Below, in pieces: positions 2,555-28,260 of a DNA stretch of 64,000 nt (the first letter of the stretch is position 1; every line of letters starts with the position of its first letter). The notes below the pieces were generated by a model that saw only the letters and a program-made list of their open reading frames with translations, had not been told where the DNA came from and made no database searches. The translations under genes were made by a program, and so were the position numbers. The DNA is from Streptomyces profundus (GTDB lineage: Bacteria > Actinomycetota > Actinomycetes > Streptomycetales > Streptomycetaceae), in NCBI RefSeq assembly GCF_020740535.1, contig NZ_CP082362.1:6197501-6261500 (forward strand), written 5' to 3'.

Positions 2555-2567
2555 CCCCTCACCCTAC

Positions 2568-2630: not shown

Positions 2631-2643
2631 AAAGGGGCAGGTC

Positions 2644-3393: not shown

Positions 3394-3605
3394 CCCCCGC
3401 GCACGCGGAAACGGCCTCCCTCCCCGACGCGTCGACGCCCGCCGGTCGGCGCGAGGCCGGCCACAGCGGCGACGGGGAGTACCGGGAGGTGTGCGACGGG
3501 CACCGGGACGGCGAGCGGCTCGCCGGGCCGGCCGTCGTCCTCGGCGCCGCCAGCTCGGCCCCTGCTCGCGCCCCTCCGCCGTGCCGTTCCGTGCAAGACT
3601 CCCCC

Positions 3606-4223: not shown

Positions 4224-4301
4224 CGGGATTTGGCGCTCACGGGGCGATACATGGCACGGAGAGCGTCGTGCTGACGGTTCGTCAGAGTGCATCTTGGTCG
4301 G

Positions 4302-4673: not shown

Positions 4674-4697
4674 CGCGTAGGCGTCCGGCCGCGACGC

Positions 4698-4739
4698 CCG
4701 GCCCCGCCCCCGGAAGGGCTCAGCGGGGCTCGGGGCCGG
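4698..4739. terminator. Candidate terminator between convergent lipoprotein and LysR genes
   Basis: CCGGCCCCG (4698-4706) can pair with CGGGGCCGG (4731-4739). An alternative 7-bp stem, 4701-4707 with 4723-4729, uses part of the same bases. No T-tract follows, as is common in Streptomyces. The position between convergent genes is the main support. Confidence 0.35.
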
Positions 4740-5607: not shown

Positions 5608-5665
5608 ACCGGCACAGTATCGGATGATGCAGAACGGGGCTTGGACGGGCATAACTGCCGGCTCT

Positions 5666-5696
5666 ACCGTAACGGCCACCTTCACCGTTTCGGCCA
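5666..5696. promoter_or_regulatory. Direct repeats in the LysR/dehydrogenase divergent gap
   Basis: ACCGTAACGGCCA at 5666-5678 recurs as ACCGTTTCGGCCA at 5684-5696, 18 bp apart with two mismatches. The repeats end at the ribosome site (AAGGAG, 5696-5701) of the downstream gene. The spacing is less than two helical turns. A regulator site, for the LysR protein or the cluster's GntR, is inference. Confidence 0.4.
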
Positions 5697-5709
5697 AGGA
5701 GCCAGGTTG

Positions 5710-6696
5710 TTGAAACTCGCCGTCGCCATGACCGCCCAGCGTGCCGAGGATGTCTGCGGTCCTCAGGCCAGAGCCCTGATGGAGGAGCGCTTCGCCACCA
5801 CCTGGGCGGCTGAGCCGCTCACCGCCGAGGGCGTCACGGGGCTGGCCGCCGGTCATGACGTGCTGCTCACCAGCTGGGGCACCCCCCATCTGGACTCCGC
5901 GATCTGGTCGGACGGAGACGGACCGCGCGTCGTCGCCCACGCCGCCGGCACCGTCAAGCGGCTGATCGACCGCGAGGTGCTCGACCAGGGCGTCACGGTC
6001 TTCTCGGCCGCGGGACGCATCGCCTGGTCGGTCGGCGAGTACTGCCTGGCCTCGATGCTGACGCTCGCCAGGCGGTTGCCCAGGTTCGACGCGGCGGTAC
6101 GCGGCGGCGGCTGGAAGCAGACCGCGTTCCGGGGCGGCGAACTCGCCGGCCAGCGGGTCGGGTTGATCGGCGCCAGCGCCACCGCCCGCGCGCTGATCAG
6201 CCTGCTGGAGCCGTTCCGCTGCGAGGTGCTGGTCTACGACCCCTATCTGGACGAGGACCGGGCCGCCGCGCTCGGCGTCCGCCGGGCCTCCCTCGAAGAG
6301 GCGCTGGCCTGCCCCTTCGCCTCGCTCCATGTGCCGGACCTGCCGGCCACCAAGGGCATGGTGACCAGGGCGATGATCGAGCGGGTCATCCCCGACGGGG
6401 CCGTCGTCGTCAACTCGGCCCGTGGGCCCTCGATCGACCAGGACGCGCTCTTCGAGGCGGCCCTGGCCGGTCGGATCTCCGCCGCGCTCGACGTCTACGA
6501 CCCCGAGCCGCCGACCCTGCCCGAGGCGGTGCTCGGCTGTCCCAACCTGCTCTTCACCCCGCATGTCGCCGGGGACACCGTGGACGGCCATCTCGCTCTG
6601 GCCGGCGCGGTGTTGGGCGATGCGTTGGGCTGGCTCGACCACGGCACGCTCGGTCCGACCCATGTCGACCCGGCGGCCTGGCCGACTGCCGCCTGA
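5710..6696 (+). CDS. 2-hydroxyacid dehydrogenase, NAD-binding (first of two)
   Basis: The product is about 328 residues and belongs to the D-isomer-specific 2-hydroxyacid dehydrogenase family. The catalytic arginine is in VVNSARGPSIDQDAL, the general acid histidine in FTPHVAG, and the acidic residue is expected near DVYDPEPP. The nucleotide-binding glycine motif is degenerate (GLIGASATARA instead of GxGxxG). The TTG at 5710 is 8 nt after AAGGAG; the adjacent TTG at 5707 and an ATG at 5728 are alternatives. It heads the transport and catabolic operon and may reduce a keto-acid product of the enolase-family enzymes. Confidence 0.85.
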   Translation: MKLAVAMTAQRAEDVCGPQARALMEERFATTWAAEPLTAEGVTGLAAGHDVLLTSWGTPHLDSAIWSDGDGPRVVAHAAGTVKRLIDREVLDQGVTVFSAAGRIAWSVGEYCLASMLTLARRLPRFDAAVRGGGWKQTAFRGGELAGQRVGLIGASATARALISLLEPFRCEVLVYDPYLDEDRAAALGVRRASLEEALACPFASLHVPDLPATKGMVTRAMIERVIPDGAVVVNSARGPSIDQDALFEAALAGRISAALDVYDPEPPTLPEAVLGCPNLLFTPHVAGDTVDGHLALAGAVLGDALGWLDHGTLGPTHVDPAAWPTAA

Positions 6697-6750
6697 GCGC
6701 TCGCCAGGACCACCCACCGGTACGTCCCCCCCTCGAAAGGAACACCTGCC

Positions 6751-7881
6751 ATGTCGCGCATCACGGCGGTCGAGGTCTTTGCCGTGACCGTCCCGTTCGC
6801 CCGACGTTTCGTGCTGGGCAGCGGCGCTGTTGGCACCCCCGACCAGGCCGGAGCCGTCGTCTTCGTCAAGCTCACCACCGAGGACGGCGTCGTCGGCTGG
6901 GGCGAGCAGCGGGCGCTGCCCAGCTGGAGCTATGAGACGGCCGAGACCATCGCGGTCGTCATCCGACGCCATCTGACGCCCATCCTGCTCGAACTCACCC
7001 CCTTTGACGTGGAGTTGTTCCACCGCGAGGCCAACCGCCGGCTCAGCCCCTCCGTCTCCAACGGCTTCCCGTTCGCCCGTGCCGCCGTCGATATCGCGCT
7101 CCATGACGCGGCCGGCAAACTCGCCGGGCTGCCGGTGCACGCGCTGCTCGGCGGCCGGGTGCGGGACGAGCTGCCGCTCTGCTCCGCCATCGGCGTCGGC
7201 ACCCCCGAGGCCGTCAGGGAACACGCCCTGGCCTCCGCCGACTACGCCGCCTACAAGGTGAAGATCGGCGGCGATGTCGAGGCCGACACCCGTGCGGTGC
7301 GCACCGTCGCCGAGGCCGTCGACGGCAAGCCCATCTGGCTGGACGCCAACCAGTCCTACCGCCCCGCCGCGCTGCTCCAACTGCTGGACGGCGTCCGGGA
7401 CGTGCCCGGCATCCACTGCGTGGAACAGCCGGTGCCCTCCACCGACACCCTGGGGCTCAGCCGGCTGCGCACGCTGATCGACCTGCCGCTCGCGATCGAC
7501 GAGGGCAGCTTCAGCGCGCAGGACCTGTCCCGGGCGATGCGCCTGGACGCCGCCGATCTGGTGGTCGTCAAGATCTGCAAGGCCGGCGGCATCCGCAACG
7601 CGCTCAAGACCGCCCAGGTCGCGTTGGCCGGCGGCGTCGAGGTGTTGGCCAGCGGCCTCACCGACTGCGGCATCGGCTTCGCCGCCGCCGTGCACCTCTT
7701 CAGCCAACTGGAGCTGGCCCTGCCCGCCGAGCTCAACGGGCCCGAGCTGCTCTCCGATCTCTATGTCGACAACCTGTCCATCGAGGCGGCCGTCGCGGCC
7801 GTTCCCACCGCCCCCGGCCTCGGCGTCGAGGTCGACGAGGAGCGGATAAGGGCCGAGGCGTTGGACCTCGCCCTCAACTGA
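6751..7881 (+). CDS. Mandelate racemase/muconate lactonizing enzyme family protein (enolase superfamily)
   Basis: The 376-residue protein has the full MLE-subgroup active site: the KxK motif K169-V-K171 in AAYKVKIGG, metal ligands D198 (WLDANQ), E225 (CVEQP) and D250 (AIDEG), and K277 in VVKICKAGG. The two lysines facing each other across the barrel suit epimerisation, cycloisomerisation or syn-dehydration of a carboxylate substrate. It is preceded by GAAAGGAA and followed closely by a sugar-type ABC importer, which suggests an imported acid sugar or related carboxylate. The exact reaction cannot be read from sequence. Confidence 0.88.
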   Translation: MSRITAVEVFAVTVPFARRFVLGSGAVGTPDQAGAVVFVKLTTEDGVVGWGEQRALPSWSYETAETIAVVIRRHLTPILLELTPFDVELFHREANRRLSPSVSNGFPFARAAVDIALHDAAGKLAGLPVHALLGGRVRDELPLCSAIGVGTPEAVREHALASADYAAYKVKIGGDVEADTRAVRTVAEAVDGKPIWLDANQSYRPAALLQLLDGVRDVPGIHCVEQPVPSTDTLGLSRLRTLIDLPLAIDEGSFSAQDLSRAMRLDAADLVVVKICKAGGIRNALKTAQVALAGGVEVLASGLTDCGIGFAAAVHLFSQLELALPAELNGPELLSDLYVDNLSIEAAVAAVPTAPGLGVEVDEERIRAEALDLALN

Positions 7882-7899: not shown

Positions 7900-9237
7900 A
7901 TGTCCGCCGCTACCAACACGTTCAAGGGAAGTCAGGGGATCTCCCGCCGCTCCCTGCTGCGGGGTGCCGCCGCCTTCGGCTCTCTGACCGCCGCCGGCTC
8001 CCTGGCCGGCTGCTCGTCGGGGCCGCCGGACGGCACCGCCACCTGGTCCATGTGGTCGTCGAGCCCGGAGGAGGGCCAGGTCTGGGCGGACTTCGGCGCC
8101 CATGTCGAGGAGCGGCTCGGCATCCGGTCGGCCTCCCAACTGACCCCGTCCGACGGCTATGTGACCAAGCTCGACCTCCAGCTGGTCAGCGGCACCGCCA
8201 GCCTGGTCACCGCCCTCAACGGCTGGCTCATACCGACCTACGCCGCGCGCGGCGCGCACCGCGAGCTGGACGATCTGATCGCGGCCGACCCCGAGTTCGA
8301 TCCGGAGGACTTCTACCCCGACATCCGTTCCATCTCGTCCTTCGACGATCGCACCTTCGCCATCGGATTCGATGTCGCGCCCACCGTCCTCTACTACAAC
8401 AGGACGCTGCTGGCGGAGAACGGCGTCGAGCCGCCGCACCCGACCGAGCCCATGGACTGGGACACCTTCCGCGAGCTGACCATCCAACTCAGCGGCCCGG
8501 ACAACCAGTACGGCTTCACCTGCGCACCGTCCATCGACGACCTGGTCTCCTGGATCTACTCGGCCGGCGGCAACGTGATGAACGAGCGCGAGGACGCCAG
8601 CGCGCTGGACGCGCCCGAGGCGATGGAGGCGCTGCACTATGTGATCGACCTCTTCGTCCGCGACCGCGTCACCCCGCCGATCAGCAACCTGGTCACCGAG
8701 AACTCCCTCGCGAACTTCCTCGAAGGCAACGTCGCGTTCATGCAGAACGGGCCCTGGCAGGTGGTGAACGTGCGGGGCGCCTCGTTCGACTGGGACATCG
8801 TGCCCTTCCCGGCCGGGCCCGCCGGCAGCAAGCCGCGGGTGTCCGGGTCCAGCTTCGCCATCCCCGCCGCGGTGCGCGGCGACGACCTGGAGCTGGCCTG
8901 GGAGTTGCTCAAGGTGCTGACCTCGACCGACGCCCTCAACATCTATGCCAGGGCCGGCCGCAACAACCCGGCCAGGCTGTCGGCCGGCACCGCCTTCGCG
9001 CCGCCCCCCGACAACCTCTCGGTGGTGCAACGGATTCTGGCCGGCGAGGTCGCCGGCGGCCACCCGTTCGACGTCACGACGAACTGGAACCAGGTGCGGC
9101 AGCTGCTCGGGCAGGACCTGCCGCGCGCGTTCCTCGGGCAGCGCGGCGTCACCGAGACCATCGACGGGCTCACCCCGCGCCTCAACGTCCTGATGCGCCA
9201 GCACCAGGACCACATCCGGGCCGGCGCCGCGCACTGA
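7900..9237 (+). CDS. Sugar-type ABC transporter substrate-binding lipoprotein
   Basis: The 445-residue protein has a twin-arginine signal (SRRSLLRGAAAFG, arginines 16-17) followed by a lipobox LAGC with the cysteine at residue 38, so it is probably a Tat-exported lipoprotein. The mature protein is a family 1 extracellular solute-binding protein; recognisable parts are IGFDVAPTVLYYNRTLL, NVAFMQNGPWQ and VSGSSFAIP. Two permease genes follow. It should capture the substrate of the surrounding catabolic enzymes. Confidence 0.92.
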   Translation: MSAATNTFKGSQGISRRSLLRGAAAFGSLTAAGSLAGCSSGPPDGTATWSMWSSSPEEGQVWADFGAHVEERLGIRSASQLTPSDGYVTKLDLQLVSGTASLVTALNGWLIPTYAARGAHRELDDLIAADPEFDPEDFYPDIRSISSFDDRTFAIGFDVAPTVLYYNRTLLAENGVEPPHPTEPMDWDTFRELTIQLSGPDNQYGFTCAPSIDDLVSWIYSAGGNVMNEREDASALDAPEAMEALHYVIDLFVRDRVTPPISNLVTENSLANFLEGNVAFMQNGPWQVVNVRGASFDWDIVPFPAGPAGSKPRVSGSSFAIPAAVRGDDLELAWELLKVLTSTDALNIYARAGRNNPARLSAGTAFAPPPDNLSVVQRILAGEVAGGHPFDVTTNWNQVRQLLGQDLPRAFLGQRGVTETIDGLTPRLNVLMRQHQDHIRAGAAH

Positions 9238-9320
9238 CCGGCCGTGGTCCCCCCAGTCGCCCATCCGCGTGACACCCCCCATCCCCAACCCACCCGTTCG
9301 CTCGGCACCAGGAGGACGCC

Positions 9321-10265
9321 ATGGCCGTCGAGACACCCATCGCCACATCGGGGAGCCCACCGGGCCGACCCCGGCGTCGGGGGCGCCCGAGCCGCTTCGG
9401 CTCGGAGACCTTCGCCGCCTGGCTCTTTCTCACGCCGAGTTTCGTCGGCTTTCTGATCTTCACGGCCGGCCCCGTGGTCGCCGCCGGCGTGATCTCGCTG
9501 CTCCACTGGAACCTCTTCAGCCCACCCACCTTCGCTGGCCTTTCGAACTACACCCGGCTGGGGCCCGATCCGACCTTCTGGTCGGCGCTCGGCAACACCG
9601 CCTACTTCACCCTGGTCAGCGTCCCGTTGACGATGGTGGTCAGCCTGGCGCTGGCGCTGCTGCTCAACCACGGGCTGCGCCGGATGGCGATCTTCCGCTC
9701 GCTGTTGCTGCTGCCCTACGCCACCATCACCGTGGCCGTGGCCTTCGTCTGGATCTGGCTCTACATACCGCACGACGGGCTGATGAACAGTGTGCTCGGC
9801 CTGGTGGGCATCGACGGACCCGCCTGGCTGATCTCCGACACCTGGGCGATGCCCTCGCTGATCCTGATGAGCGTCTGGAAGAGCTTCGGTTTCGGCATGG
9901 TGATCTTTCTGGCCGGCCTCCAAGCCATTCCGCAACAGCTCTATGAGGCAGCCAAGGTGGATGGAACATCTGCCTGGGGGTCTTTTCGCAATGTGACGCT
10001 GCCGCTGCTGTCGCCCTCGATGTTCTTTGTGATCGTCACTTCGGTGATCGGTTCGTTCCAGGTCTTCGACCAGGCGTTGGTGATGACCAACGGCGGGCCG
10101 GGCTCCAGCACCACCACGCTGGTCATGTACATCTATCAGTCCGGATTCCAGAACTACGAACAGGGCTACGCCGCCGCCCAGTCCCTGGTGCTGTTCGCCT
10201 TCATCGCCCTGATCACCGGGATCCAGTTCCTCTTCCAGCGGAGGCTGGTGCACTATGACATCTGA
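9321..10265 (+). CDS. ABC transporter permease, MalF-like
   Basis: The 314-residue membrane protein has about six transmembrane segments, the first at AAWLFLTPSFVGFLIFTAG. The ATPase-docking EAA loop is YEAAKVDGTSAWGSFRNVTL, ending in LPLLSP, as in carbohydrate importers of the MalF type. It overlaps the next permease by 11 bp, showing translational coupling. No ATPase gene is present in the operon. In Streptomyces the shared ATPase MsiK typically serves such importers, so that is the probable energiser. Confidence 0.93.
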   Translation: MAVETPIATSGSPPGRPRRRGRPSRFGSETFAAWLFLTPSFVGFLIFTAGPVVAAGVISLLHWNLFSPPTFAGLSNYTRLGPDPTFWSALGNTAYFTLVSVPLTMVVSLALALLLNHGLRRMAIFRSLLLLPYATITVAVAFVWIWLYIPHDGLMNSVLGLVGIDGPAWLISDTWAMPSLILMSVWKSFGFGMVIFLAGLQAIPQQLYEAAKVDGTSAWGSFRNVTLPLLSPSMFFVIVTSVIGSFQVFDQALVMTNGGPGSSTTTLVMYIYQSGFQNYEQGYAAAQSLVLFAFIALITGIQFLFQRRLVHYDI

Positions 10266-11145
10266 CGCCCCGCCGCTGGTCCAGCCGCGTCGCGCCGCGC
10301 CGGCGCCCCGCCCGGTGCCGACCCGCCAGCTGGTCAGACGCAAGCTGCTGGTCTTCGCCTGCTTCCTGGTCACCGGCATCACGCTGCTCCCCATCGTGAT
10401 GATGGTGCTGGTGGCCTTCCAGTCGGACGCCGAGTCCATGGCCGCCCAGCCGTCGTTCTGGCCCAGCACCTGGCACTGGGAGAACATCGGCCGCACCTTC
10501 GACCTGGTGCCCCTGGGCCGCTACCTGCTCAACACCGTGTTCTTCGCCGGCGGCACCGCGCTGCTGGAGACCGTCACGGCCGCACTGGCCGCCTACGCCT
10601 TCGCCCGTCTCAACTTCCCAGGGCGCAACGCCATCTTCGGCGTCTATCTGGCCACCCTGATGATCCCGGCCCAGGTCACCCTGATCCCGCAGTTCATCAT
10701 CGTGGCCAAGATGCACGGCGTGGACACCTGGCCGGGGATGATCCTGCCGCACGCGTTCACCGCGCTGGGCGTCTTCCTGCTGCGGCAGTTCTTCCTCGGC
10801 ATCCCCAGGGACTACGAGGAGGCCGCCCGACTCGACGGCGCCAACCGTTGGCAAGTGTTTCTCCGGGTGATCGTTCCACTCGCGGTACCCGCCATCGCGA
10901 CACTCTTTGTCTTCAAGTTCATCAGCCAGTGGAACAACCTGCTGTGGCCGCTGGTCATCTCGAACAGCGACGCCACCAGGACCGCGTCCGTCGGACTCCA
11001 GGTGTTCCAGGACACCAACGGCACCCAGTGGAACCTGCTGCTGATGGCCGCCACCCTCACCACCATTCCGCTGATCGTGCTCTTCTTCCTGACCCAACGC
11101 TGGTTCGTCCGAGGCATCACCATGAGCGGGCTCGGAGGCCGCTGA
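10255..11145 (+). CDS. ABC transporter permease, MalG-like
   Basis: The 296-residue protein is the second permease of the importer. After a proline-rich cytoplasmic N-terminus, transmembrane helices begin at KLLVFACFLVTGITLLPIV. The EAA loop is YEEAARLDGANRWQVFLRVI followed by VPLAVP. It starts inside the end of the MalF-like gene and ends 4 bp before the isomerase gene, so the whole block is one operon. Confidence 0.93.
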   Translation: MTSDAPPLVQPRRAAPAPRPVPTRQLVRRKLLVFACFLVTGITLLPIVMMVLVAFQSDAESMAAQPSFWPSTWHWENIGRTFDLVPLGRYLLNTVFFAGGTALLETVTAALAAYAFARLNFPGRNAIFGVYLATLMIPAQVTLIPQFIIVAKMHGVDTWPGMILPHAFTALGVFLLRQFFLGIPRDYEEAARLDGANRWQVFLRVIVPLAVPAIATLFVFKFISQWNNLLWPLVISNSDATRTASVGLQVFQDTNGTQWNLLLMAATLTTIPLIVLFFLTQRWFVRGITMSGLGGR

Positions 11146-17856: not shown

Positions 17857-19146
17857 CTATCCGTGGGTGGTGGTGAACGCGGCCCAGGTGAACGGGGCGT
17901 CGGCGAGGTCCCCGTGCCGGCGCCAGCGCACGGCCCGCTCGCGCTGCCAGTCGTTGAGCGCGACCACCGGATCGGGGGCGTCCTGCGCCGCGTCCACGGC
18001 GATCACGGACGCCGGCACCACCGTGGTCCCGGGGGCTGCGCCGGCGGCGAAGCGGCGCACCCCCTCGTCGGTCGGCAGCGTCCAGCGGGTCGACACCACA
18101 TACTCGGCGCCGGTGTGGATCGCCGCCGCCACCAGCCCCGTCGGCTCGGCGAACCGCACCTCGCCGCCGCTCTCGCAGGCCACCAGCGCCACCCGGTTGG
18201 GCATCCGCCACGGCCTGGGGTCGTCCGGGCGGTGGCCGAGCACCAGATCGGCGGCGGTCAGCGGCCGGTGCCCGCCGAGCGGGGCGGCCCGCCCGGTGCT
18301 GTCCACGCCGCAGCCCAGATGGAGCCGCGCGTCCAGGCCGTGGTCCGCCGTGGTCACATGCCCCACATAGAGGAACCTGGACGCCTCCGCCAGCAGCGGC
18401 TCCAGCACCTCCCTGCTCAGCCCGGGGCGGCGGAAGGCGTCCGCCGCCGACCCCGTGGGGCGCAGCCGTTCGCCGAGCCGGGTCACCATCGCGGCCAGCG
18501 GCGAATCCGCCGCGACCGGGCCCAACACCGAGCCGAGCCCGGTGTGGTCGGCGAACCCCGGCACCCTGGGGTCGAGCGCCGCCACCACGGGCCCCTCCGG
18601 CCGCCACGGGGAGATCCGGCGCTCGGGCGAGTGCCGCACCGTGGCGGGCGGCAGCGTGGCCACGTCCAGGACCTCGACGAGGCGCTCCTCGTCGTCCACG
18701 CGCAGCGCCTCCCAGGGCACCTGGCCGGTCGAGGGCGACGGCTGGACGCGCAGCCGGGGCCGGATGCCGCGCTCCACCAGCAGGCGCAGCTCGGCGCCCA
18801 GCGGATACGGGATCAGCGCCGTGGTCAGCCGGCCGAGCAGATCGCTCTCCCGTGCCACGTCCACCAGCGGGCCACGGGTCAACGCCCTGGTCAGCGCCTC
18901 CTCGATGGTCTCGCCCGGCAGCGGGGTCGGCAGCGCGCGGGCCAGCTCGTCCAGCACCCCGGCCACCTCGCTCCGCTCGAAGAGCATGACCCGGGGCTCG
19001 TCGGGGGCGTGCTCCCAGCGCCAGGTGAGATAGAGGTCGCCCGCGTCCACGTACTTCAGCTGAACCGTCGGTTGGAAGGTGTGGACGGTGCCGTCCAGGT
19101 TCTCCACCACGCGGAGGTCGAGCGGGGGGTTGGCCGACTTTCTCAC
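17857..19146 (-). CDS. CHAT-domain (caspase-like) protease
   Basis: The 429-residue protein has a C-terminal CHAT domain. The catalytic histidine is H263 in [14 protein letters not shown] and the catalytic cysteine C324 in [11 protein letters not shown], with the downstream [20 protein letters not shown] strand typical of CHAT proteins. The N-terminal 150 residues form a separate alpha/beta region ending in [10 protein letters not shown], also usual in CHAT proteins. The GTG at 19146 follows GAGGAGAA with good spacing. CHAT proteases are proteolytic effectors in prokaryotic conflict systems, commonly activated by TPR proteins, and two TPR genes lie directly upstream. The target protein is unknown. 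Confidence 0.85.
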
Positions 19147-19235
19147 CGTGTTCTCCTCTGCCTGGTCCGCACCCCGGTGCGGTTCTCGTCCCGTCGGCCA
19201 GCTGTTTTCGGCCAGTGTTCGGCGGTGCTCGCCGG

Positions 19236-20951
19236 TCACCAGACCGGCAGCCGGTCGTCCGAGCGGATCCGGCGGCCGTAGCGCTCCTCGCCGGCCTCGA
19301 TCCAGTGGTCCAACTCGGTCTCCTCGGCGTCGAAGATCCGCAGCCGGGGCGGCAGCGCGAAGCGCGGCGCGGGGAACGCGTCCGAACCGCCCTGGCTCCC
19401 CGTCCAGACCATCGAGGCGGCGAACGCCCCGACGCCCGCCTCGGCCGGGACGGGGAACGGCTCCGGCACGATCGCCCCCGGCGAGGAGTCCGTCAGCAGC
19501 CCCCGGACGTCGTCCGCGAGAGGACGCGGCGCCCGGTCGAGCACCAGCGTGCTGGACGCGGCGAGGTTCTCGACCAACTCCATGGCGAGCCGGGGCTGTT
19601 GGAGGAGCGTCAGAATCCGCAGCGTCACCGTCACCGCCGGCCCCGTGACCTCCCGCGACCACCGCTCCCTGGTCGGCCCCGGCGGGAAGCCGTGCCGCAT
19701 CGCGTCGGTGGCCAGCGCCGCTGGCAGCGCCAGGTTGAGCGCGGCCCCCAGCCGGCGCTCCCGCTCCTTGCGGCGGACCGCGAACCGCAGCGTCTCGATC
19801 ACCACCCGGGCCCGCCGCACATCGATCCGGGCCGTGTCATGCAGCCTGCCCGCCGCCACACAGTGAGCCCGCGCGGCCAGATAGTGGTCCTCGGCCAGCT
19901 TGAAACGCAGCGCGCACGCCGCGATATCGCCCGCCAGCAGCTCGCACTCGACCAGCGCCGACACCTCGCCGACCCGCTCCAGCGGCGGCGCCGCCTCCCG
20001 CAGGATCTTCCGGGCGCGCAGCGGCCGGCCACGCAGGAAGGCCACCAGCGCCTCCCCGAACCTGGCGCCGGCCGCCTGGTGTTCGGCACCGAGCCCGGAG
20101 TACGCCCGACGCGCCTGCTGGAAACGCCGCTCGGCCTCCCCGAGACGGCGCCCCTCCAACGCCACCCGCGCCAGGTTCTCCTCCAGCAGCGCCAGCGCCG
20201 AGGGGTCGCCGGCCAGCTCGTGGAACTCCCCGGCCTGCCGCAGACGCGCCAGGGTGCCGGCCGCGTCGCCCGAACGCTGCGCCAGCAGGCCCAGGTTGGT
20301 GTAGGCGTGCCCGGCGAGCCGTGGCTCCCGCTCAAGCGCCAGGGCCAGCGCCCGCTGGATCTCGGCCTCCGCCTCGGCATAGCGCTCCAGGCCGATCAGC
20401 ACACAGCCCCTGGTGTTGTGCAGATGGAAACCGAGCAGCGCTGCATGGCCGGTGTAGGGGCCCGTGGAGAGCGTGGCGGCGCGGTCGCAGTCGGCCAGCG
20501 CGTCCTCGAACCGGCCCGGCACCTGAAGCGTCTGCGCCCGGTTGATCAGCACGCTGACCAGCACGGCGCTGGTGGAGCGCGTGTCGCCCAGCAGGCGTTC
20601 CGCCGCCTCGCCAGCCGCCAGCGCCTCGTCGGCCAGCCGCAGCGCCTCGGCCACCTCGCCCCTGCCCTCGGCGAGCGCGGCGAGGTTGCCCAGCACCCGG
20701 GCGCGCAGATCCAGCCCCTCACCGTCCACGTCCGGCACCTCGGTGGCCCGCAGCGCCCGTTCCAGCAGGGGCACCGCTCGCTTCCCACCGTTGCGCCCGT
20801 GCCGCACCACGGCCTTGTTGACCAGCGCGGCGTGCTCCGCCCAGCGCGGGCCGTAGGGCACCCCGGCACGGACGCCGAGCACTCCGTCCAACTCGGCCTC
20901 CGTCGGCCCTCCGGCGCCGTCGCCGGGCACCTCGCGTCGCTCGCTCACCAT
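19236..20951 (-). CDS. TPR-repeat protein, cassette partner of CHAT protease
   Basis: The 571-residue protein is almost wholly alpha-helical with repeated TPR-like units rich in A/L/E/R, such as ALRLADEALAAGEAAERLLG, EDALADCDRAATLSTGPY and YAEAEAEIQRALALALERE. No enzymatic motif is visible. The last 50 residues form a distinct non-TPR tail (DAFPAPRFALPPRLRI, then HWIEAGEERYGRRIRS) that is shared with the upstream TPR protein. The start ATG at 20951 overlaps the end of the upstream gene by 7 nt (ATGGTGA), so the two are translated together. It probably senses a signal or scaffolds the CHAT protease. Confidence 0.8.
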   Translation of the reverse strand: MVSERREVPGDGAGGPTEAELDGVLGVRAGVPYGPRWAEHAALVNKAVVRHGRNGGKRAVPLLERALRATEVPDVDGEGLDLRARVLGNLAALAEGRGEVAEALRLADEALAAGEAAERLLGDTRSTSAVLVSVLINRAQTLQVPGRFEDALADCDRAATLSTGPYTGHAALLGFHLHNTRGCVLIGLERYAEAEAEIQRALALALEREPRLAGHAYTNLGLLAQRSGDAAGTLARLRQAGEFHELAGDPSALALLEENLARVALEGRRLGEAERRFQQARRAYSGLGAEHQAAGARFGEALVAFLRGRPLRARKILREAAPPLERVGEVSALVECELLAGDIAACALRFKLAEDHYLAARAHCVAAGRLHDTARIDVRRARVVIETLRFAVRRKERERRLGAALNLALPAALATDAMRHGFPPGPTRERWSREVTGPAVTVTLRILTLLQQPRLAMELVENLAASSTLVLDRAPRPLADDVRGLLTDSSPGAIVPEPFPVPAEAGVGAFAASMVWTGSQGGSDAFPAPRFALPPRLRIFDAEETELDHWIEAGEERYGRRIRSDDRLPVW

Positions 20952-23326
20952 GCGCGCACCACCTCGGCGGAGCGGATCGGGAAGCCATAGCGTTCCTCGG
21001 CCCGCTCGATCCACGGCTCCAGCGGCGACGGCACCTCAGTCGCCACCCGGACCCGGGGCGGCAGCGCCAGCTGGGGCGCGGGGAACGCCTCGTCGCCCGT
21101 GGACACCAGGCCGAGCCCGGCAGCGGCATAGGAGAGCTGGTCGTTCGTGAGGGGGGCGGGCGTCGGCAGCGGCACCGTCAGCACATCGGGGGGCCCGGCG
21201 CTCGGGACGCTCGCGGCCGGCTCGTGCAGGCGCAGCGAGACGGTCGCCGCGAGGTGGTCGAGCAGCGCGACGCCCAGCGCCGCGTCCCCGAGGCTCCGGA
21301 TGGCGAGCAGCGCCGCCCGGGTGGCGGGGGCGGCGGCCAGCGCCACCCAGCGCTCCCGGGCGACGCCGGCCGTGAAGAACTGGCGCGCCGCCTCGGCGGC
21401 CAGGGCCGCCGGCACCGCCAAGTCCAGCGCCGTGTCCAGCAACGGGGCACGCTGGGCCTCGTCGGCCAGATCCGCGGCCCAGTTGATATGCGTGTGGGCC
21501 CGCCACCAGTCCACGGTCAGCGCGAGATGCCAACCGTAGTGGTCCTGCCCGAGGCGCCGGGCGGTCAGCAGACAGCGCTCCGCCTCGGCGTGGTTGTCGA
21601 GCGCGGCATGGGCGCTGCCCGCCACCTGGTGGAAGGCGATCTCCACCAGCGGCGTCCGGCCCTCGCCCCACTCGTCGAGGGCCTGTCGCAACAGCGCCAG
21701 GCCCTCCTCCGCCCGGCCCGAGCTCACCGCAACCGCCGCCCGGCCATGCCGGCAGGCCGCGCGCATCTGGGCGGCGCCCTCCGGGGGCAGCAGCGCCTCC
21801 GCCGCGTCGTAGTGCCGCCGCGCCTCCTCGGGGCGCTCCGCCAGATAGTCCAGGCGCCCCAGGCTCACCAGGGTCGCCACCTCGCCCTCGGTCTCGCCCA
21901 GCGCCGCGAACAGCTCCCTGGCCAGCCGCAGCCGGGTCGCGCTGGTCTCGTTGTCGCCGATGCCGCTCGCCTGTTCGGCCAACATCACATACGCGCGGGG
22001 CGCCAGCCACGGCGCGTGCTCCTGCGCCAGGGCCAGCGCGCGCTCGCCCTCGTCGGCGGCCTCGGCGAACCGTCCCGTCACCATGAGCAGCGTGGTCCGC
22101 AGCAGCCGCCACCACACCTCGGCCGCGTGCCGCCCCGCGCCCAGCGAGGGCAGGAGCTCCTCGACGCGCGCCAGCTCGGCCAACGCCTCGGCGTGGCGGC
22201 CGAGTTCGCGCAGCATGGCGGCGCGCAGCTGGCGTGCCTGCGCCAGCACGGCCGCCGCGCCGTGGTCGGCGCCCACCGCCGTGACCACCGTGACCAGCGC
22301 CTCCACCGCCTCCTCGGCGAACCCCAGCGCGCCCTCCGCGTCCCCACGGGTGCTGGCGATCCCGGTGCGGTTGATCAGCACGTTGGCACGGCAGAACAAC
22401 GCGTCGAGGCCACCCCCGACCGTCCGGGTGGCACGTTCCGCCGCCTGGAACAGGCCGTCGGCCTCGGCGAGTTGATGGGTGGCGACATGCCGCACCCCCT
22501 CCAGGTTCAGCGCCACGGAACGACGCCAACGCGGGCCGAGCGGCCAGGGCGCCAACTCGGCGCGGGAGCCGGGGGCGAGCACCGCGGGATCGGGCGCGCC
22601 GTCGTCCGCGCCCACCATCACGATGCCGTCCGCCGTCCCCCACTCCTCGGCCGTCAGCGCCGGATCCTCGGCGATCCGGCGGAACTCCTCGGCAGCCTCC
22701 GGGTTGTCGCAGGCCAGCGCGATCCGGGCCAGGTTGTCGCAGGGGTAGACGGCCAGTTCGGGGCGGAACGCCAGCGCGATGTCCAGCGCGATCAGCGCCT
22801 CCTGCTCCGCCTCGGCCAGCTCGCCGGTGACCATCCACAGCGTGGTGCGCGCGCCATGCAGCGTGAACGCCAGCAGATCGCCCGGCTCCGGCAGCTCGTC
22901 GGCGACCGCGAAGGCCCGCGCCAGATCGGCGTCGGCCGCCGTCGGCCGGCCGGTCGACATCGCCAACTGGGCGCGGGACACCAGCGAGTTGACCAGCGTG
23001 GCCTGGGCCCCGGCATAGCCGCCCAGGCCGGCGGACAGCTCGACGGACTCGGTGATCAGCCGCTCCGCCTCGGCCAGGTCGCCTTCCGCCTCGGCCACTC
23101 CGGCCATGTTGGTGGCCGTGGTGGCCCGGTGCAGCAGGCCCTCCTCGTCCACGTCCTGGACCTGGGTCTCGGCGTAGGCCGCTGCCAACGGACTCCGGGC
23201 GTGGTGCGGTCGGCCGTCCTGGAGGAGCAGGGTGCCCTCGTTGTGCAGATCCCGCCAGCGGTGCCAGCGGGGCGAAGCGGCCCCCACGCCCGGCAGGCCC
23301 ACCGGCTCCTTCTCCTCGTCGGCCAT
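20945..23326 (-). CDS. Large TPR-repeat protein, paralog of the next gene
   Basis: The 793-residue protein starts MADEEKEPVGLPGVGAASPRW and is built of many TPR-like helical hairpins (for example AEGDLAEAERLITESVELSA and RFAEAADEGERALALAQEHA). It has no recognisable catalytic domain, transmembrane segment or signal peptide. Its C-terminal tail, EAFPAPQLALPPRVRV then PWIERAEERYGFPIRS, matches that of the 571-residue neighbour, so the two arose from one ancestor and probably dock on the same partner. It lies 59 bp after the 373-residue gene. Sensor or scaffold of the CHAT cassette is the best inference. Confidence 0.8.
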   Translation of the reverse strand: MADEEKEPVGLPGVGAASPRWHRWRDLHNEGTLLLQDGRPHHARSPLAAAYAETQVQDVDEEGLLHRATTATNMAGVAEAEGDLAEAERLITESVELSAGLGGYAGAQATLVNSLVSRAQLAMSTGRPTAADADLARAFAVADELPEPGDLLAFTLHGARTTLWMVTGELAEAEQEALIALDIALAFRPELAVYPCDNLARIALACDNPEAAEEFRRIAEDPALTAEEWGTADGIVMVGADDGAPDPAVLAPGSRAELAPWPLGPRWRRSVALNLEGVRHVATHQLAEADGLFQAAERATRTVGGGLDALFCRANVLINRTGIASTRGDAEGALGFAEEAVEALVTVVTAVGADHGAAAVLAQARQLRAAMLRELGRHAEALAELARVEELLPSLGAGRHAAEVWWRLLRTTLLMVTGRFAEAADEGERALALAQEHAPWLAPRAYVMLAEQASGIGDNETSATRLRLARELFAALGETEGEVATLVSLGRLDYLAERPEEARRHYDAAEALLPPEGAAQMRAACRHGRAAVAVSSGRAEEGLALLRQALDEWGEGRTPLVEIAFHQVAGSAHAALDNHAEAERCLLTARRLGQDHYGWHLALTVDWWRAHTHINWAADLADEAQRAPLLDTALDLAVPAALAAEAARQFFTAGVARERWVALAAAPATRAALLAIRSLGDAALGVALLDHLAATVSLRLHEPAASVPSAGPPDVLTVPLPTPAPLTNDQLSYAAAGLGLVSTGDEAFPAPQLALPPRVRVATEVPSPLEPWIERAEERYGFPIRSAEVVRAW

Positions 23327-23386
23327 GCCGACCCCTCCCGCCTCTCCGGTTCCCCTGGCCGCCCGACGACGGCCAGCTCCCGTGCC

Positions 23387-24508
23387 TCAGCCCTCGTCGT
23401 GCCCCAGCAGCGCCGCGGCCCGCTCGGCGAGCGAGCCGTCCGGCGCGGCCAACCGGGCCCGCGCATACGCGATCACCGCCGACTGGCGCTCGACCAGCTC
23501 GGCGGCCGGCGCGGGTTCGGCCCCGGCCGGCGCGAACTCCGGCGCCCAGACGACGACGCGGCGCCGCGCCGCCGGCACCAGCAGCGCGGTCGGCTCCACC
23601 GCCCCCGCGCCGACGAACTCCCGCCCGTCGTCCGACATCCCCAGCTCGAACTCGACCCCGTCGCCGCGCGCCCGCAGCGGCGCCGCCGCCTCGACCGGGG
23701 CGCCAGGCGCGCGGGGCACCGCCACCTCAAGCAGCGAACGGTCCTGCCGCCGCACCAGGGCCCAGCGCAGCTCGGCGCCCGCGTCCACCAGACCCGCGGG
23801 CACCAGCGTCCAGTCCACGGGGCCGCCGCCGCGCGGCCCGCCGAGGCCGTCGCCGACCGCGCCGCCGGCGGCCAGCGCCCAGGCCGCCGGCCGTGGCTCG
23901 GCGCGCGCCGGCGCGGTGGGCGGCACCCCCCACGCCTCCGCGACCTCCGCCAGCCGCTGGGCCAACTCCATGGCCTGATCGCCCAGTTCGGGGTGGTCGA
24001 ACAGCGCCGCCAGCGCGGCCGGCGGATGCCCGGACGCGGTGGCCCGCAGCAGCAGCCGCTCCACCGCGTCCTCGTCGTCCAACAGCTCCTCCACATCGGC
24101 GGCGACGACCGCCGCCTCGACGAGCCGCAGCGCGGCCGGCAGCGCCGGCACGCCGGCCACGAAGGAGGCCGGCCACCACGCCTCCTGCCAGCCGAGCAGG
24201 GCCAGCCGCCGCAGCGCCAGCGCCACGGGCGAGCGACCCGCGTCGGGAGGCAGCGCGACCTCGGCGAGCGCTTCGCCGTCGGAGACGGCCAGCACCGCGT
24301 CCGCGGCCGAGCCGTAGACCTGCCACAGCCAGTCGGCGGCCGGCGCCGGATCGTGGATCTCGGCCGCCGGCACCGGCGCTTCGGCCGTCACGTCCCAGGT
24401 CAGCACCGCGCCCCTGGCCTCGACCAGCGCCGTCCACTCCGGATGCGTCGGCGGCGCCCCCACCCGCAGCGCCCCGTCGACCCGCCGCACCCGCACCGTC
24501 CCGCTCAT
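23387..24508 (-). CDS. Unrecognised 373-residue protein of the CHAT-TPR cassette
   Basis: I do not recognise a family. The protein is acidic and Ala/Pro/Gly-rich. It contains a helical segment around residues 130-190 (VEAAVVAADVEELLDDEDAV, split from LLLRATASGHPPAALAALF) and a C-terminal beta-rich part, LLEVAVPRAPGAPVEAAAPL then RRRVVVWAPEFAPAG, ending in a helix AVIAYARARLAAPDGSLAER. There is no signal peptide or membrane helix. It overlaps the upstream gene by 4 nt (ATGA), so it is co-translated with it. Presence in the cassette suggests an accessory or substrate role for the CHAT protease. Confidence 0.7.
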   Translation of the reverse strand: MSGTVRVRRVDGALRVGAPPTHPEWTALVEARGAVLTWDVTAEAPVPAAEIHDPAPAADWLWQVYGSAADAVLAVSDGEALAEVALPPDAGRSPVALALRRLALLGWQEAWWPASFVAGVPALPAALRLVEAAVVAADVEELLDDEDAVERLLLRATASGHPPAALAALFDHPELGDQAMELAQRLAEVAEAWGVPPTAPARAEPRPAAWALAAGGAVGDGLGGPRGGGPVDWTLVPAGLVDAGAELRWALVRRQDRSLLEVAVPRAPGAPVEAAAPLRARGDGVEFELGMSDDGREFVGAGAVEPTALLVPAARRRVVVWAPEFAPAGAEPAPAAELVERQSAVIAYARARLAAPDGSLAERAAALLGHDEG

Positions 24509-25863
24509 GGCCGACGCTCCTCGCCGCTCGGCGAGTCGGCCGGCGAGTCGGTGGCCGGGCCGGTCGGTGGGTCGGCCGGCCCGCCGGAGACCGCGGCCCG
24601 ATCCAACACCGCGCGCAGCCGGTCACGTTGGTCCATGATCACGGAGCGGAGCACCCCGTCCAGCAGATCCCACAGCACCTCGGCGGCCAGCGGCTCGCCG
24701 CGCAGCTCCCGGCCGTGCAGCCGCACCCACAGCCGACGCAGATACGCCTGCCGCACCTCAAGAACGCCGGCGCCGGCCGGCCGGGGCAGGCGCAGCGCGC
24801 GGTGCACGAAGGGCTCGCGCCGCCAGCGGGCCGCCAGCCGGACCGCCGCGTCCGTGCCCGCCGCGTCCGTGCCCGCCGTGCGTTCCGGATCCAGCCCGGC
24901 GCTGGCCCGCCGCCCCAGCACCATCGCGAGCCGCCCCGCCTCGTCGGCCAACTGCCAGGGCGCCGCCGAACGGTGGATCTCCTGCCGGACCAGGGCCGGC
25001 AGGCCCGGCATGGTGGACCGGTGGAACGTGGCGGTGAACCCGGCGAAGAGCCGCTCGAAGACGGAACGGTCGAACGGCGGCGGCAGGTTCCGCTTGGAGG
25101 CGCGCTCGCCCAACTCCGGGGCCACCACCCGCTCCCGCCTGGTCAGCCCACAGTCCAGGGCGGCGCCGGGCGCCGCCAGCGAGGCCGCGTCCCGCGAGCC
25201 GAGCCCCTGGGCCAGCAGCGCGGCCAGCAGCGCCCGGTCCGGGCCGGAGGCGAGCTGGTCCAGCAGCGCCGCCAACTCCGGCGGATCGGCCGGGACCTCC
25301 GCGCCCTGGTCGGTGGCCGCGCGGGCCGCCCAGGCGGCCGTCAGCTCCGCGCGTAGCGCCGCGGCCTGGGCCGGGTCGGTGACAAACCGGCGCAGCGCCT
25401 CCACGGTCAACTCGCCGGCCGCCTCGCGGATCTCGTCGACCACCTCGGCGGCCACCCGCGGCGCGTCGGCGCCCGGCGGGCCCAGCGTGCTCGCCAACTC
25501 GTAGCAGCGCTGGAAGTAACGGTCCTGCGGGTTGCCCTCGGTGATCCGGGCGGCGCGCCTGGCCCGCTTCAGCTGGGTGAACCAGGCGGCGGTCGCGGCC
25601 AGTCTCGGGCCGGCCTCGCGCAGCGTGGCGCGCAGCTCGTCGACGTGCTCGCCGCGCACCGGGCCGGCCGCGAACCTGGGGTTGAGCACGGGGCGCAGCA
25701 CCAGCGGATCGAGCAGCAGTTTCACCGTGCGGGCCAGCGGCTGGCCCAGGCCGTTGCTCAACGGCGCGACGTCCGCGCCGAACTCGGCCCAGACCTCGGC
25801 GATCAGCAGCGCCCTCGGCACGGTCGCCGGCGCGCGGGCGGTGGTGGCGGTCGCGGGGGACAT
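24505..25863 (-). CDS. Unrecognised 452-residue protein, first gene of the CHAT-TPR cassette
   Basis: The family is unknown to me. The protein is predicted mainly alpha-helical and Arg/Ala/Leu-rich, with segments such as PRALLIAEVWAEFGADVAPL, KRARRAARITEGNPQDRYFQ and PFDRSVFERLFAGFTATFHR, and a Pro/Ser/Glu-rich C-terminal tail. No membrane helix, signal peptide or known catalytic motif is seen. No ribosome site precedes the ATG at 25863, but a TACCAT hexamer ends 6 nt before it, which fits a leaderless transcript. It opens the five-gene unit and overlaps the next gene by ATGA. It could be a sensor, adaptor or effector. Confidence 0.7.
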   Translation of the reverse strand: MSPATATTARAPATVPRALLIAEVWAEFGADVAPLSNGLGQPLARTVKLLLDPLVLRPVLNPRFAAGPVRGEHVDELRATLREAGPRLAATAAWFTQLKRARRAARITEGNPQDRYFQRCYELASTLGPPGADAPRVAAEVVDEIREAAGELTVEALRRFVTDPAQAAALRAELTAAWAARAATDQGAEVPADPPELAALLDQLASGPDRALLAALLAQGLGSRDAASLAAPGAALDCGLTRRERVVAPELGERASKRNLPPPFDRSVFERLFAGFTATFHRSTMPGLPALVRQEIHRSAAPWQLADEAGRLAMVLGRRASAGLDPERTAGTDAAGTDAAVRLAARWRREPFVHRALRLPRPAGAGVLEVRQAYLRRLWVRLHGRELRGEPLAAEVLWDLLDGVLRSVIMDQRDRLRAVLDRAAVSGGPADPPTGPATDSPADSPSGEERRP

Positions 25864-25869
25864 GCTCGC

Positions 25870-25875
25870 ATGGTA
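25870..25875 (-). promoter_or_regulatory. Candidate -10 box of a leaderless promoter for the CHAT-TPR cassette
   Basis: On the minus strand TACCAT (TANNNT pattern) lies 6 nt before the ATG at 25863, and no ribosome site is present between them. This spacing is typical of leaderless actinobacterial mRNAs. No convincing -35 hexamer is seen. Confidence 0.45.
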
Positions 25876-25980
25876 ACCGGCTCGATCTGCGCGGTGATCC
25901 CGTTGGCCGTTTCTGTGATCGGTAGCTGTCGGACGTCCGCCACCTTGGAACTCTCAAGCCCTCGACGGGAGGAGAGGACC

Positions 25981-27423
25981 GTGCGACACCAGGCGACCCA
26001 CGCGGCGTCGGCCGGCGGATCGAGCCGGTGGAACCCGCCGCGCGTACCGGGGCGGATCACCTCGCCCTACGGCACGCCGAACGAGCCGCGTATCCCCGCT
26101 CCGGTCCGATCGAGGCGCGGTTTCGGCCTGCGCTTCGCCCTGCTGCCGCTGGGCATCACCGGCCTCGTCTTCGGCACGATCTGGACGGCCATGCCCGACC
26201 CCACCGTCTCCATCCAGCCGGGGCTCGGCATCGCCGCCACCCCGAGGGGCGCGCTGGCGCTGGTGCCCTACGAGCGGGACGGCAACACCAACCCCGTCCA
26301 GATGATGTTCGGCGACATGTGGCAGAAGCGGCTGGTCGCGGTGGACCTGAGGACCGGCGACCGGGTCTGGGACGTCCGCCTCTCCGACGAACTCATCTGG
26401 GAGGCGGCCGTGTTGGCGACCAGCCCGGAGTATGTCTACCTCGTCACCGACGACGGGCTGCGGATCGTCGACCTGCTCGACGGCTCGACCGTGGCGCACC
26501 CGGACGAGATCCCGGGCCTCGGCGCCGACTACATCGCCTCGGACGACGCCTACGCCTACGACAGCGCCCGCCGGATGGTGGTCGCCCTGGACATGATGGG
26601 CGAGGTGCGCGGCATTCCGCTGGGCGGGATCGAGGCGGTGCCCGCCGACGAGGACACCGCGGCCACCTGGGCCGATCGCCTCGGCGACAGCGCGTTGAAC
26701 GTGGACGAGCAGGCCACCACCGGGAGTTCGGCGTCGGCGGGCGACTGGGGCTCCCTCGCGATGATCCCCAGGTCACCCGGTGCCCCCGCCAGCACGCTGG
26801 TGCTCACCGACCCGGAGCGCCGGGAGCGGCAGTTGGGCGGACAGGTCTTCCGGGAGGGGGAGATCCTGCTCACCTCCGGGCTGCGGGCGGCGATGGCCGA
26901 CGCCGTCGGCCTGGAGGGCGTGGACTCCCTGCCGGCCGAGGAACTCACCGAGCAGCTCGTCGACCTGCTGCCCGACGGCATGCCGCCCGGGGTGACCGAC
27001 CAGTTGCGCGAGCAGCTGGAGGCGGCGCTCGACACCGGCGCCGACGGGCTGCCGGGGCTTCCAGGGCTGCCGGACACGGCGTGGCTGCCCGGTCTCCCCG
27101 GCGCCGCCAACCTGGACGAGCCGACGCTGGTCGCCATGGGCGCGGACCAGGGGCATGTGCTGATCCAGGACGCGGCCGACGCGGCGGGGGAGAACTACCG
27201 GCTGACGGTGGTCTCCCTGGAGACCGGCGAGGTCCTCTCCAGCCGCGTCATCGGGGAGAAGCTCGGCAACCCCCTCTCGGCGCCCGGCGGTCAGAGCGTG
27301 CTCCCCGCCGCGGGCCCCGACGCGCGGCTGAGCGACCTCGACGAGCTGCTGCTGGTCGGCCCGGACGGCTCCCTCCGGGTGGTCTCCATCGGCGGCACCG
27401 ACTTCTTCGGCAACCCGAACTGA
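25981..27423 (+). CDS. Single-pass membrane protein with extracytoplasmic repeat domain (PA2928-like)
   Basis: The 480-residue protein starts at the GTG at 25981 behind GGAGGAGAGG. After about 40 residues comes a membrane helix (FALLPLGITGLVFGTIW), so the bulk is outside the cell. That part looks like a PQQ/WD-type beta-propeller: LVAVDLRTGDRVWDVRL, VYLVTDDGLRIVDLLDG and LTVVSLETGEVLSSRV repeat a hydrophobic-DL-G pattern. It is interrupted by a glycine/leucine/proline segment near residues 340-375 (LPGLPGLPDTAWLPGLPG). It resembles proteins annotated as PA2928 family, a weak recollection. The adjacent membrane gene is probably its partner. Confidence 0.65.
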   Translation: MRHQATHAASAGGSSRWNPPRVPGRITSPYGTPNEPRIPAPVRSRRGFGLRFALLPLGITGLVFGTIWTAMPDPTVSIQPGLGIAATPRGALALVPYERDGNTNPVQMMFGDMWQKRLVAVDLRTGDRVWDVRLSDELIWEAAVLATSPEYVYLVTDDGLRIVDLLDGSTVAHPDEIPGLGADYIASDDAYAYDSARRMVVALDMMGEVRGIPLGGIEAVPADEDTAATWADRLGDSALNVDEQATTGSSASAGDWGSLAMIPRSPGAPASTLVLTDPERRERQLGGQVFREGEILLTSGLRAAMADAVGLEGVDSLPAEELTEQLVDLLPDGMPPGVTDQLREQLEAALDTGADGLPGLPGLPDTAWLPGLPGAANLDEPTLVAMGADQGHVLIQDAADAAGENYRLTVVSLETGEVLSSRVIGEKLGNPLSAPGGQSVLPAAGPDARLSDLDELLLVGPDGSLRVVSIGGTDFFGNPN

Positions 27424-27474: not shown

Positions 27475-28260
27475 ATGACCATGAAGGTGTTCGCCTGGCT
27501 GCTCGCCGCGATCGGCGTCGCGCTCAGCATTCCCTATGTCCTGACCGGTCTCGCGGGGGACGACGGCCTCGCCTGGCTGAACGGCTGGCTGGTCGGCCCG
27601 GCGCTGTTGATCTTCTTTGTGCCGCACCTCTTCACCGTGGGCCGGATGCTGGAGGGCGCGACCGGCGTCAAGGTGTCGAAGAAGTTCCGCGACGCGCCCA
27701 TCGGCATGGGCACCGTCGTGTCGATGGAACGCACCGGGCTGACCGTCAACGACCAGCCGCAGATGGACATCCTGCTCGATGTCGACACCCTGGACGGCCA
27801 GTCCTTCCGCGGGGTGGCCAGGCAGCTCGTCGACCTCACGGAGCTGGCGCTCGTGGTGCCCGGCACCGTGGTCCCGGTGCGCTACCTGCCCGGCAGCACG
27901 GACGGCAAGGTCGCGCTCGCCACCGACGCGCCGCCGGACGAGATGCAGGCGGCCATCAACCGGGTCAGGGTGGCCAAGGGGGAGATGACCCCCAAGCAAC
28001 TGCGGATCGCCGAGGCCGGCTACCTGACCCGCGCCGTGGTCCTTGAGATGCGGCCCACCGGCGAGGTGGAGGGCAACCGTTCGGTGCTGGTGTACACGCT
28101 GCGGGTGTCCCGCCCCGACGGCTCCTCCTTCGACATCGAGCAGAGCAAGGCCGTGCCGCCCTCGGCGATCCCGCAGCTTCAGCCGGGGATGGTGGTCAAG
28201 GCGCAGTACCTGCCGCACGACGAGTCCGAGGTCGTGGTGGCCATCCGCGCCAACGCCTGA
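27475..28260 (+). CDS. Membrane protein with two transmembrane helices and soluble C-terminal domain
   Basis: The 261-residue protein opens with two hydrophobic helices (VFAWLLAAIGVALSIPYVL and LVGPALLIFFVPHLF) followed by a cytoplasmic or exposed domain. Two similar halves, about residues 75-140 (GTVVSMERTGLTVNDQPQMD) and 185-258 (AVVLEMRPTGEVEGNRSVLV), each end in a P-G-x-V-V-x-x-x-Y-L-P pattern. The domain is therefore an internal duplication. It follows the PA2928-like gene by 51 bp and is probably co-transcribed. The ribosome site AAAGGA suits the ATG at 27481 slightly better than that at 27475. Function unknown. Confidence 0.65.
   Translation: MTMKVFAWLLAAIGVALSIPYVLTGLAGDDGLAWLNGWLVGPALLIFFVPHLFTVGRMLEGATGVKVSKKFRDAPIGMGTVVSMERTGLTVNDQPQMDILLDVDTLDGQSFRGVARQLVDLTELALVVPGTVVPVRYLPGSTDGKVALATDAPPDEMQAAINRVRVAKGEMTPKQLRIAEAGYLTRAVVLEMRPTGEVEGNRSVLVYTLRVSRPDGSSFDIEQSKAVPPSAIPQLQPGMVVKAQYLPHDESEVVVAIRANA

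Follow-up and report, generated by a model that had tools for sequence, protein, structure and literature searches.

What unites five adjacent genes of Streptomyces profundus, one encoding a CHAT protease, two encoding TPR proteins and the two at the head of the set encoding proteins of no familiar kind, and what might they do together? The genes lie at 17857-25863 of the 64,000-nucleotide stretch of DNA analysed here (the window), on a host replicon that is a single contig (7.65 Mb genome). Bacterial CHAT proteases are related to caspases and separases, and to our knowledge few of them have known triggers or substrates. We find that the locus almost certainly holds a core module of four protein families, called here P452, P373, TPR and CHAT. 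Each family contributes one gene to this core, TPR included; only in the window's own Streptomyces clade are there two TPR genes. To judge from the membrane or surface protein genes that often adjoin it, the module is probably a cell-surface-linked alarm or defence circuit.

A P452 profile led to 47 loci from 46 records, at one genome per species (L049 and L052 come from one genome, on separate contigs), and 40 of the 47 hold P452, P373, TPR and CHAT in one order. Four of the seven loci without the full core (L015, L018, L047 and L052) end at a contig edge. Among 394 Actinomycetes genomes, P452 matches 34 and P373 matches 34, with 33 in common; P452 occurs without P373 in G162, a remnant with a stop, and P373 without P452 in G277. 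From the 34 P452-positive genomes the window and 32 regions were read (G113 was left out), and all four genes are present in 32 of these 33, i.e. in the window and 31 of the 32 regions. The two sets overlap by at least one genome, G230 being the genome of locus L044. The proposal of the initial annotation that the set forms a system is thus borne out: homologs of the two leading proteins are usually accompanied by CHAT and TPR genes, by locus as by genome. Its picture of a five-gene cassette holds in part. The four families are co-conserved, but the second TPR gene, between P373 and CHAT, is found only in the window, L010, L011, L012 and L049, and a divergent arm of two genes, c3 and c4, had gone unlisted.

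The linkage of the core also survives REARRANGEMENT, as permuted order and as TPR-CHAT fusion. All 20 loci read from a genus labelled g8, which we infer to be mycobacteria-like from its lysX/infC-like neighbourhood (read by eye) and its 19-kDa-lipoprotein genes, have the order TPR, CHAT, P452, P373, and at six loci (L126, L127, L128, L130, L153 and L154) TPR and CHAT share a single open frame. With such permutations and fusions in other lineages, the linkage is not merely a frozen gene order. Distance matrices of P452, P373 and CHAT correlate at r 0.95-0.97 over 61 loci and the window, a figure that carries no species-tree control. Median identity in the 32 loci with all six genes is 0.62 for CHAT, 0.59 for P452, 0.48 for P373 and 0.38 for TPR. 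In Microbacterium sp. SLBN-146 (L134, locus 1-6865) a diverged P452 (55 bits) and a P373 lie beside CHAT, and the TPR repeats there form one protein with a Ser/Thr protein kinase domain, encoded on the opposite strand next to CHAT; this kinase-TPR fusion agrees with a signalling role. A large FtsK/EssC-like gene (named by eye) is a further neighbour at that locus.

The window genes themselves match their first description as five same-strand genes: the open reading frames are there on the reverse strand, and a codon-usage gene caller picks all five, with no antisense frame among them. Down the operon, P452 and P373 overlap by 4 bases, 60 bases lie between P373 and the first TPR gene, the two TPR genes overlap by 7, and 89 bases separate the second from CHAT (with the 429-residue CHAT start), so that three of the four junctions overlap or lie within 60 bp, as had been stated. 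P452 comes first (24505-25863, 452 residues), with the C-terminal signature YLRRLWVRLHGRELR...WDLLDGVLRSVIxDQRDRLR. P373 follows (23387-24508, 373 residues), marked by invariant Trp residues and the motifs WWPA, ALAA and W..P. TPR1 (20945-23326, 793 residues) matches Pfam TPR_12 at E 9.1e-13 in five stretches and ends in the conserved tail LPPRVR...WIERAEERYGFPIRSAEVVRAW. TPR2 (19236-20951, 571 residues from the ATG at 20951; TPR_12 at E 8.9e-11, four stretches) is a tandem relative of TPR1 with the same C-terminal tail. CHAT (17857-19146) has 429 residues when read from the GTG at 19146, which is preceded by GAGGAG; an alternative GTG at 19239, the start taken by the gene caller, gives 460 residues and a 4-base overlap with TPR2.

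P452 and P373 are, as far as sequence comparison reaches, two sizeable new protein families. Neither has a significant match in Pfam, NCBIfam, PADLOC or PHROGs, in keeping with the earlier statement that the 452- and 373-residue proteins could not be assigned, and neither a 52-row P452 profile nor the P373 profile found a match among PDB sequences. Scans of 20 P452 and 25 P373 relatives against Pfam, and of 46 P373 relatives against NCBIfam, gave only isolated matches, each in a single member and none better than E 0.03. P452, P373, c3 and CHAT, compared pairwise by profile, show no relation. At least 597 P452 homologs were found at E<=1e-3 among 8000 candidates scored, and 94 P373 homologs among 8000. 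Streptomyces proteins are the closest P452 relatives, with that of Streptomyces sp. NBRC 109706 at 88% identity among the matches listed.

CHAT matches Pfam PF12770 over residues 103-425 (E 1.5e-11; 44.7 bits against a curated cut-off of 24), and the predicted dyad, His263 and Cys324, is kept in 77 of 77 aligned CHAT proteins (27 of 27 in a first alignment). This alignment took one protein per locus plus the window and included the g8, Nocardia, Jiangella and Microbacterium forms; two of its loci, L044 and L136, belong to one genome. Because the dyad is so uniformly kept, CHAT is likely a catalytic protease, as first described. Its profile found only chance-level nitrite reductase rows among solved structures, with no significant match, Csx29 included. 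NCBIfam gave a single match for the five window proteins, to TPR2 and far below cut-off, and PHROGs gave none for CHAT, TPR2, P373, P452, c3 or c4. The genome has four further CHAT-domain places (167, 132, 50 and 43 bits, against 44 for this CHAT), one of which (G000:C1:6267289-6268125) lies about 5.8 kb past the window end.

The TPR proteins share a C-terminal tail of the form LPPR...RYG...RS...W. Of 49 TPR proteins from the wider clade around the window, 48 have its final Trp, and the remaining one is truncated at a contig edge. All 10 g8 TPR proteins shown end in WP; most of the other divergent ones have another final residue. The four fusions shown carry the tail, in a recognisable form, directly ahead of the CHAT part. 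Since the tail abuts CHAT in the fusions, the split TPR and CHAT proteins would form the same complex as the fused protein.

Past 25863 the conserved locus continues into the divergent arm. An intergenic stretch of 117 bases (25864-25980), where the promoters of both directions would presumably lie, separates P452 from c4; a sigma-70-type consensus scan of it found no match. On the forward strand, c4 (25981-27423) has weak PQQ/beta-propeller similarity (PQQ_2 at E 0.019 and 15.1 bits, against a cut-off of 27.6; Beta-prop_ACSF4 weakly), and c3 (27475-28260) is predicted to encode two N-terminal transmembrane helices, by hydropathy, followed by two tandem copies of a domain of about 76 residues (P 97.5% in an hhalign self-comparison). 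The relatives of c3 score 0 to 3 membrane segments. Against Pfam, c3 reaches DUF3592 at E 0.042, below the cut-off, with a weak SH3-like (SH3_12) similarity. The gene is present in 40 of the 47 loci, always on the strand opposite P452, and missing at L015, L025, L044, L045, L047, L049 and L050; it adjoins P452 in 18 of the 33 genomes examined in the class sample. c3-like matches occur in 57 of the 394 Actinomycetes genomes, and one of these genomes, G398, has a tandem c3-like pair (L139, about 9091-10600, contig C19) and its core module on contig C18.

An N-terminal hydrophobic stretch of c4 was read by eye as one transmembrane helix, while the hydropathy script calls none, and the motif SPYGTP precedes that stretch in the window protein. 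The c4 cluster comprises 41 genes in 37 loci, the window counted. A pattern P[YWH][EGA][TVMS][PA], loosened after the sequences had been seen, occurs in 25 of 32 c4 proteins (Jiangella L044, L132, L133 and L136 and the remnant L135 excluded), against 3 of 1215 other called proteins within the first 100 residues and 10 anywhere; as the c4 proteins share ancestry, their counts cannot be taken as independent observations. In L014 and L035 the motif falls at residue 234-235, the called start being too far upstream. The stricter SP[YFWH]GTP is found in 17 of the 41 c4-cluster genes and in none of the 1215 others. Jiangella loci L132, L133 and L136 (the last from the same genome as L044) have two tandem c4-like genes downstream of CHAT and, opposite P452, a 233-residue protein with hydrophobic stretches (cluster 17).

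In some other lineages the partner is an LpqH-type 19-kDa lipoprotein. In L125 (4375-4923) and L156 (7596-8138), which are Nocardia or Nocardia-like, its gene fills the slot between c3 and P452; in L124 (13623-14165) it adjoins P452 with no c3; and in g8 (L117-L123, L140-L152) it lies upstream of TPR. All 20 g8 loci and all 3 Nocardia or Nocardia-like loci have such a gene next to the core. PF05481 matches number one each in the Nocardia-like genomes G069 and G399, where the match is the core-adjacent gene, and 3, 6 and 7 in three g8 genomes. In many lineages, though not in all, the core is accompanied by c3 and by a neighbour that differs with the lineage (c4 or a lipoprotein of the LpqH type), and an envelope link of the core is on balance probable.

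How the module is distributed bears on what it is for. Streptomyces sequences occupy three separate positions in the P452 tree: the clade of the window, a group shared with the f19 pair (100/99), and a place next to the two Nocardia-like rows that is taken by G272 (99/97), whose branch is long and of a kind that the program warns about. Six plasmid records carry P452 relatives, five from Streptomyces (1.2-1.6 Mb) and one from Nocardia farcinica (2.66 Mb), and both plasmid loci read (L155 and L156) have all four core genes. P452 had no match in 50,697 phage records. One sample of the window's genus has the module in 3 of 25 genomes, window counted, and 3 of 149 Microbacterium genomes match, one convincingly and two weakly and in part. 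In g8, 43 of 60 genomes carry the module (among other relatives, 1 of 40), and a neighbour gene of 1083-1106 residues, lysX-like by eye, is shared by 7 of the 10 g8 loci called, the other three lacking it. The window's clade shows long retention at one site beside monomeric isocitrate dehydrogenase. From the tree positions, the plasmid records and the patchy presence set against that in g8, the module appears both to spread sideways and to settle for long periods.

Several known systems resemble this one in part. In Craspase, the type III-E TPR-CHAT protease Csx29 cuts Csx30 and serves CRISPR defence (PMC10028731). The likeness lies in TPR followed by CHAT, in one polypeptide at the six fused loci and split in the window, and in accessory proteins encoded in the locus. 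The partners differ, being envelope genes here and a sigma factor in Craspase. PADLOC found no Cas or defence match in the ten window neighbours, and no CRISPR-like array was seen at positions 10000-36000 of the window, where the only repeats are imperfect direct ones in two copies and short tandem ones of low complexity. No match to Cas7-11/gRAMP was found among the ten flanking proteins, the part of the genome searched for it.

CATRA, which the initial annotation had named among known CHAT/TPR conflict systems, is defined by proteins with CATRA-N, CATRA-C and CATASP domains and is associated with TPR. The name, reportedly given by Burroughs and Aravind in 2020, is said to denote caspase/TPR-associated ternary conflict systems. 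The likeness is that of a bacterial caspase-superfamily peptidase system associated with TPR. We rejected this candidate: no such Pfam domain was matched in the five window proteins, in 20 P452 and 25 P373 relatives or in eight divergent proteins, CATASP being confirmed as present in Pfam and the presence there of CATRA-N and CATRA-C unconfirmed. A search of the window's own genome, run without a positive control, found no CATASP. CATRA is named in PMC8195603, and that source and PMC7159879 describe EACC1 as a constant component with a single transmembrane segment whose partner carries up to 50 alternative domains; in EACC1-caspase the protease adjoins a predicted membrane protein proposed as sensor. 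The EACC-caspase systems resemble our locus in that a protease of caspase type is coupled with a membrane protein. EACC1 differs: at our locus the partners belong to constant families, and c3 has two predicted helices and a repeated domain. The Pfam scan gave no EACC match for c3, the presence of EACC models in that library being unchecked. Among the papers listed in a search by titles and abstract starts, with most subscription journals outside it, none describes the P452-P373-TPR-CHAT set.

We give a little better than an even chance to the reading that this is a conserved actinobacterial proteolytic signalling module with an envelope input to CHAT. TPR and CHAT would form one protease, the TPR C-terminal tail packing on the CHAT N-terminus, and P452 and P373 would work together, either as its substrate/effector or as its sensor-inhibitor. 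An envelope signal (contact, damage or phage entry) would reach the cytosolic complex by way of c3 and its partner, perhaps with TPR docking on the PYGTP tail of c4; that tail could be a docking or a cutting site. Once activated, CHAT would cleave specifically, with P452, P373 and c4 as the likeliest targets, and the cleavage would trigger an alarm or a dormancy/death response. We more tentatively suggest a narrower form, an envelope-to-cytosol relay in which the surface partner and c3 gate TPR-CHAT, P452 and P373 are dedicated substrates, and c4 and the LpqH-type lipoprotein could be interchangeable between lineages. As to output, an antiphage one has somewhat less than an even chance and envelope or developmental signalling is nearly as likely; the two may coincide if phage contact is itself the envelope signal.

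A number of observations weigh against this reading. L023 has P452 and P373, with the family CHAT elsewhere in its genome; the L025 genome has no match to the family CHAT profile, and that of L050 a weak one only (E 2.9e-4). Some of the co-conservation is due to vertical descent at a fixed site. With the family TPR profile the g8 TPR proteins reach no more than 52-96 bits, and of two scanned against Pfam one had no match and the other only sub-cut-off TPR; the fused L130 protein, at 510 bits with the family profile, is missed by the Pfam CHAT model, so that both assignments rest on family profiles. On the envelope side, transmembrane and topology calls come from hydropathy and inspection, c3 was not found in the Jiangella loci nor in 8 of 20 g8 loci, and strong c3 relatives lie without an adjoining core in G144, G206 and G398 (there on the other contig). 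Since strong matches occur away from the core module, c3 is part of a wider family. Finally, PADLOC-DB 2.0.0 gave 0 families for all five window proteins, and PADLOC revealed no clear defence island among 99 flanking proteins of 12 loci (of 130 listed proteins and 13 loci). Its scattered matches were to mad3 (2 proteins), mad8 (2), mad1 (1) and, in one protein each, four E1-E2 models, ATPase-Toprim_I-B and CARF3--CARF, the underlying proteins being unchecked.

Among the alternatives, envelope-stress or developmental proteolysis with no part in defence is possible rather than probable. c3 with c4 or the LpqH-type lipoprotein would sense the surface, and CHAT would adjust expression or growth. 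The co-conserved membrane and surface partners speak for it, as do the long retention beside monomeric isocitrate dehydrogenase and the presence in 43 of 60 g8 genomes; patchy presence and lateral spread elsewhere speak against it, as does the lack of a transcription or sigma factor in the usual core.

Dedicated antiphage abortive infection is unlikely, though the CHAT chemistry and the service of Csx29/Craspase in CRISPR defence (PMC10028731) are in its favour. TPR, with its variable repeat number, or P373 would sense a phage product, CHAT would cut P452 or a cell target, and the cell would die; the envelope genes would be recruits or bystanders. That TPR (0.38) and P373 (0.48) vary more than CHAT (0.62) and P452 (0.59) also speaks for it, and the patchiness (3 of 25 genomes of the window's genus; one convincing match in 149 Microbacterium genomes), the three Streptomyces tree positions, the five Streptomyces megaplasmid records and transposase domains in three flanking matches (DDE_Tnp_1 in 2, DDE_Tnp_1_4 in 1, among the first 25 of 108 Pfam families) do so too. 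The PADLOC results above and the lack of any P452 match in the phage records count against it, however, as does the neighbouring monomeric isocitrate dehydrogenase; the 43 of 60 g8 genomes and the neighbour common to 7 of 10 g8 loci are unlike freely moving defence genes.

That these are unrelated genes kept by vertical descent in a conserved neighbourhood is very improbable: some flanks (isocitrate dehydrogenase and a periplasmic binding protein) are indeed co-inherited in the Streptomyces clade, but fusions and permuted order largely refute the idea, and the 33 shared genomes of 34, the plasmid records and the three Streptomyces tree positions also oppose it.

If the preferred reading of an envelope input to CHAT holds in its relay form, the module would be a bacterial counterpart of receptor-coupled caspase activation, ranging over Streptomyces, Glycomyces, Pseudonocardiaceae, Nocardia and the mycobacteria-like genus, with reduced forms elsewhere. 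It offers a fixed, testable set, overlooked until now though strongly conserved: a protease with its TPR partner, the two being fused in part of the lineages, two proteins that may be dedicated substrates or regulators, and membrane proteins that may supply the input. The hosts include widely studied bacteria such as Streptomyces. The cut partner and the trigger would tell whether actinobacteria run receptor-coupled caspase-like signalling.

The genes around the module are varied. Pfam matches the 99 flanking proteins to 108 families, and among the first 25 of these AIM24, transporters and other enzymes predominate. Beyond c3, 13 loci have a DnaK/Hsp70-like gene (cluster 5), whose four members read by eye are from Glycomyces. 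By eye, the cluster 5 protein (L014 4801-7575, L016, L017, L020 and nine further loci) has a hydrophobic stretch and a PQQ-like/β-propeller-like part.

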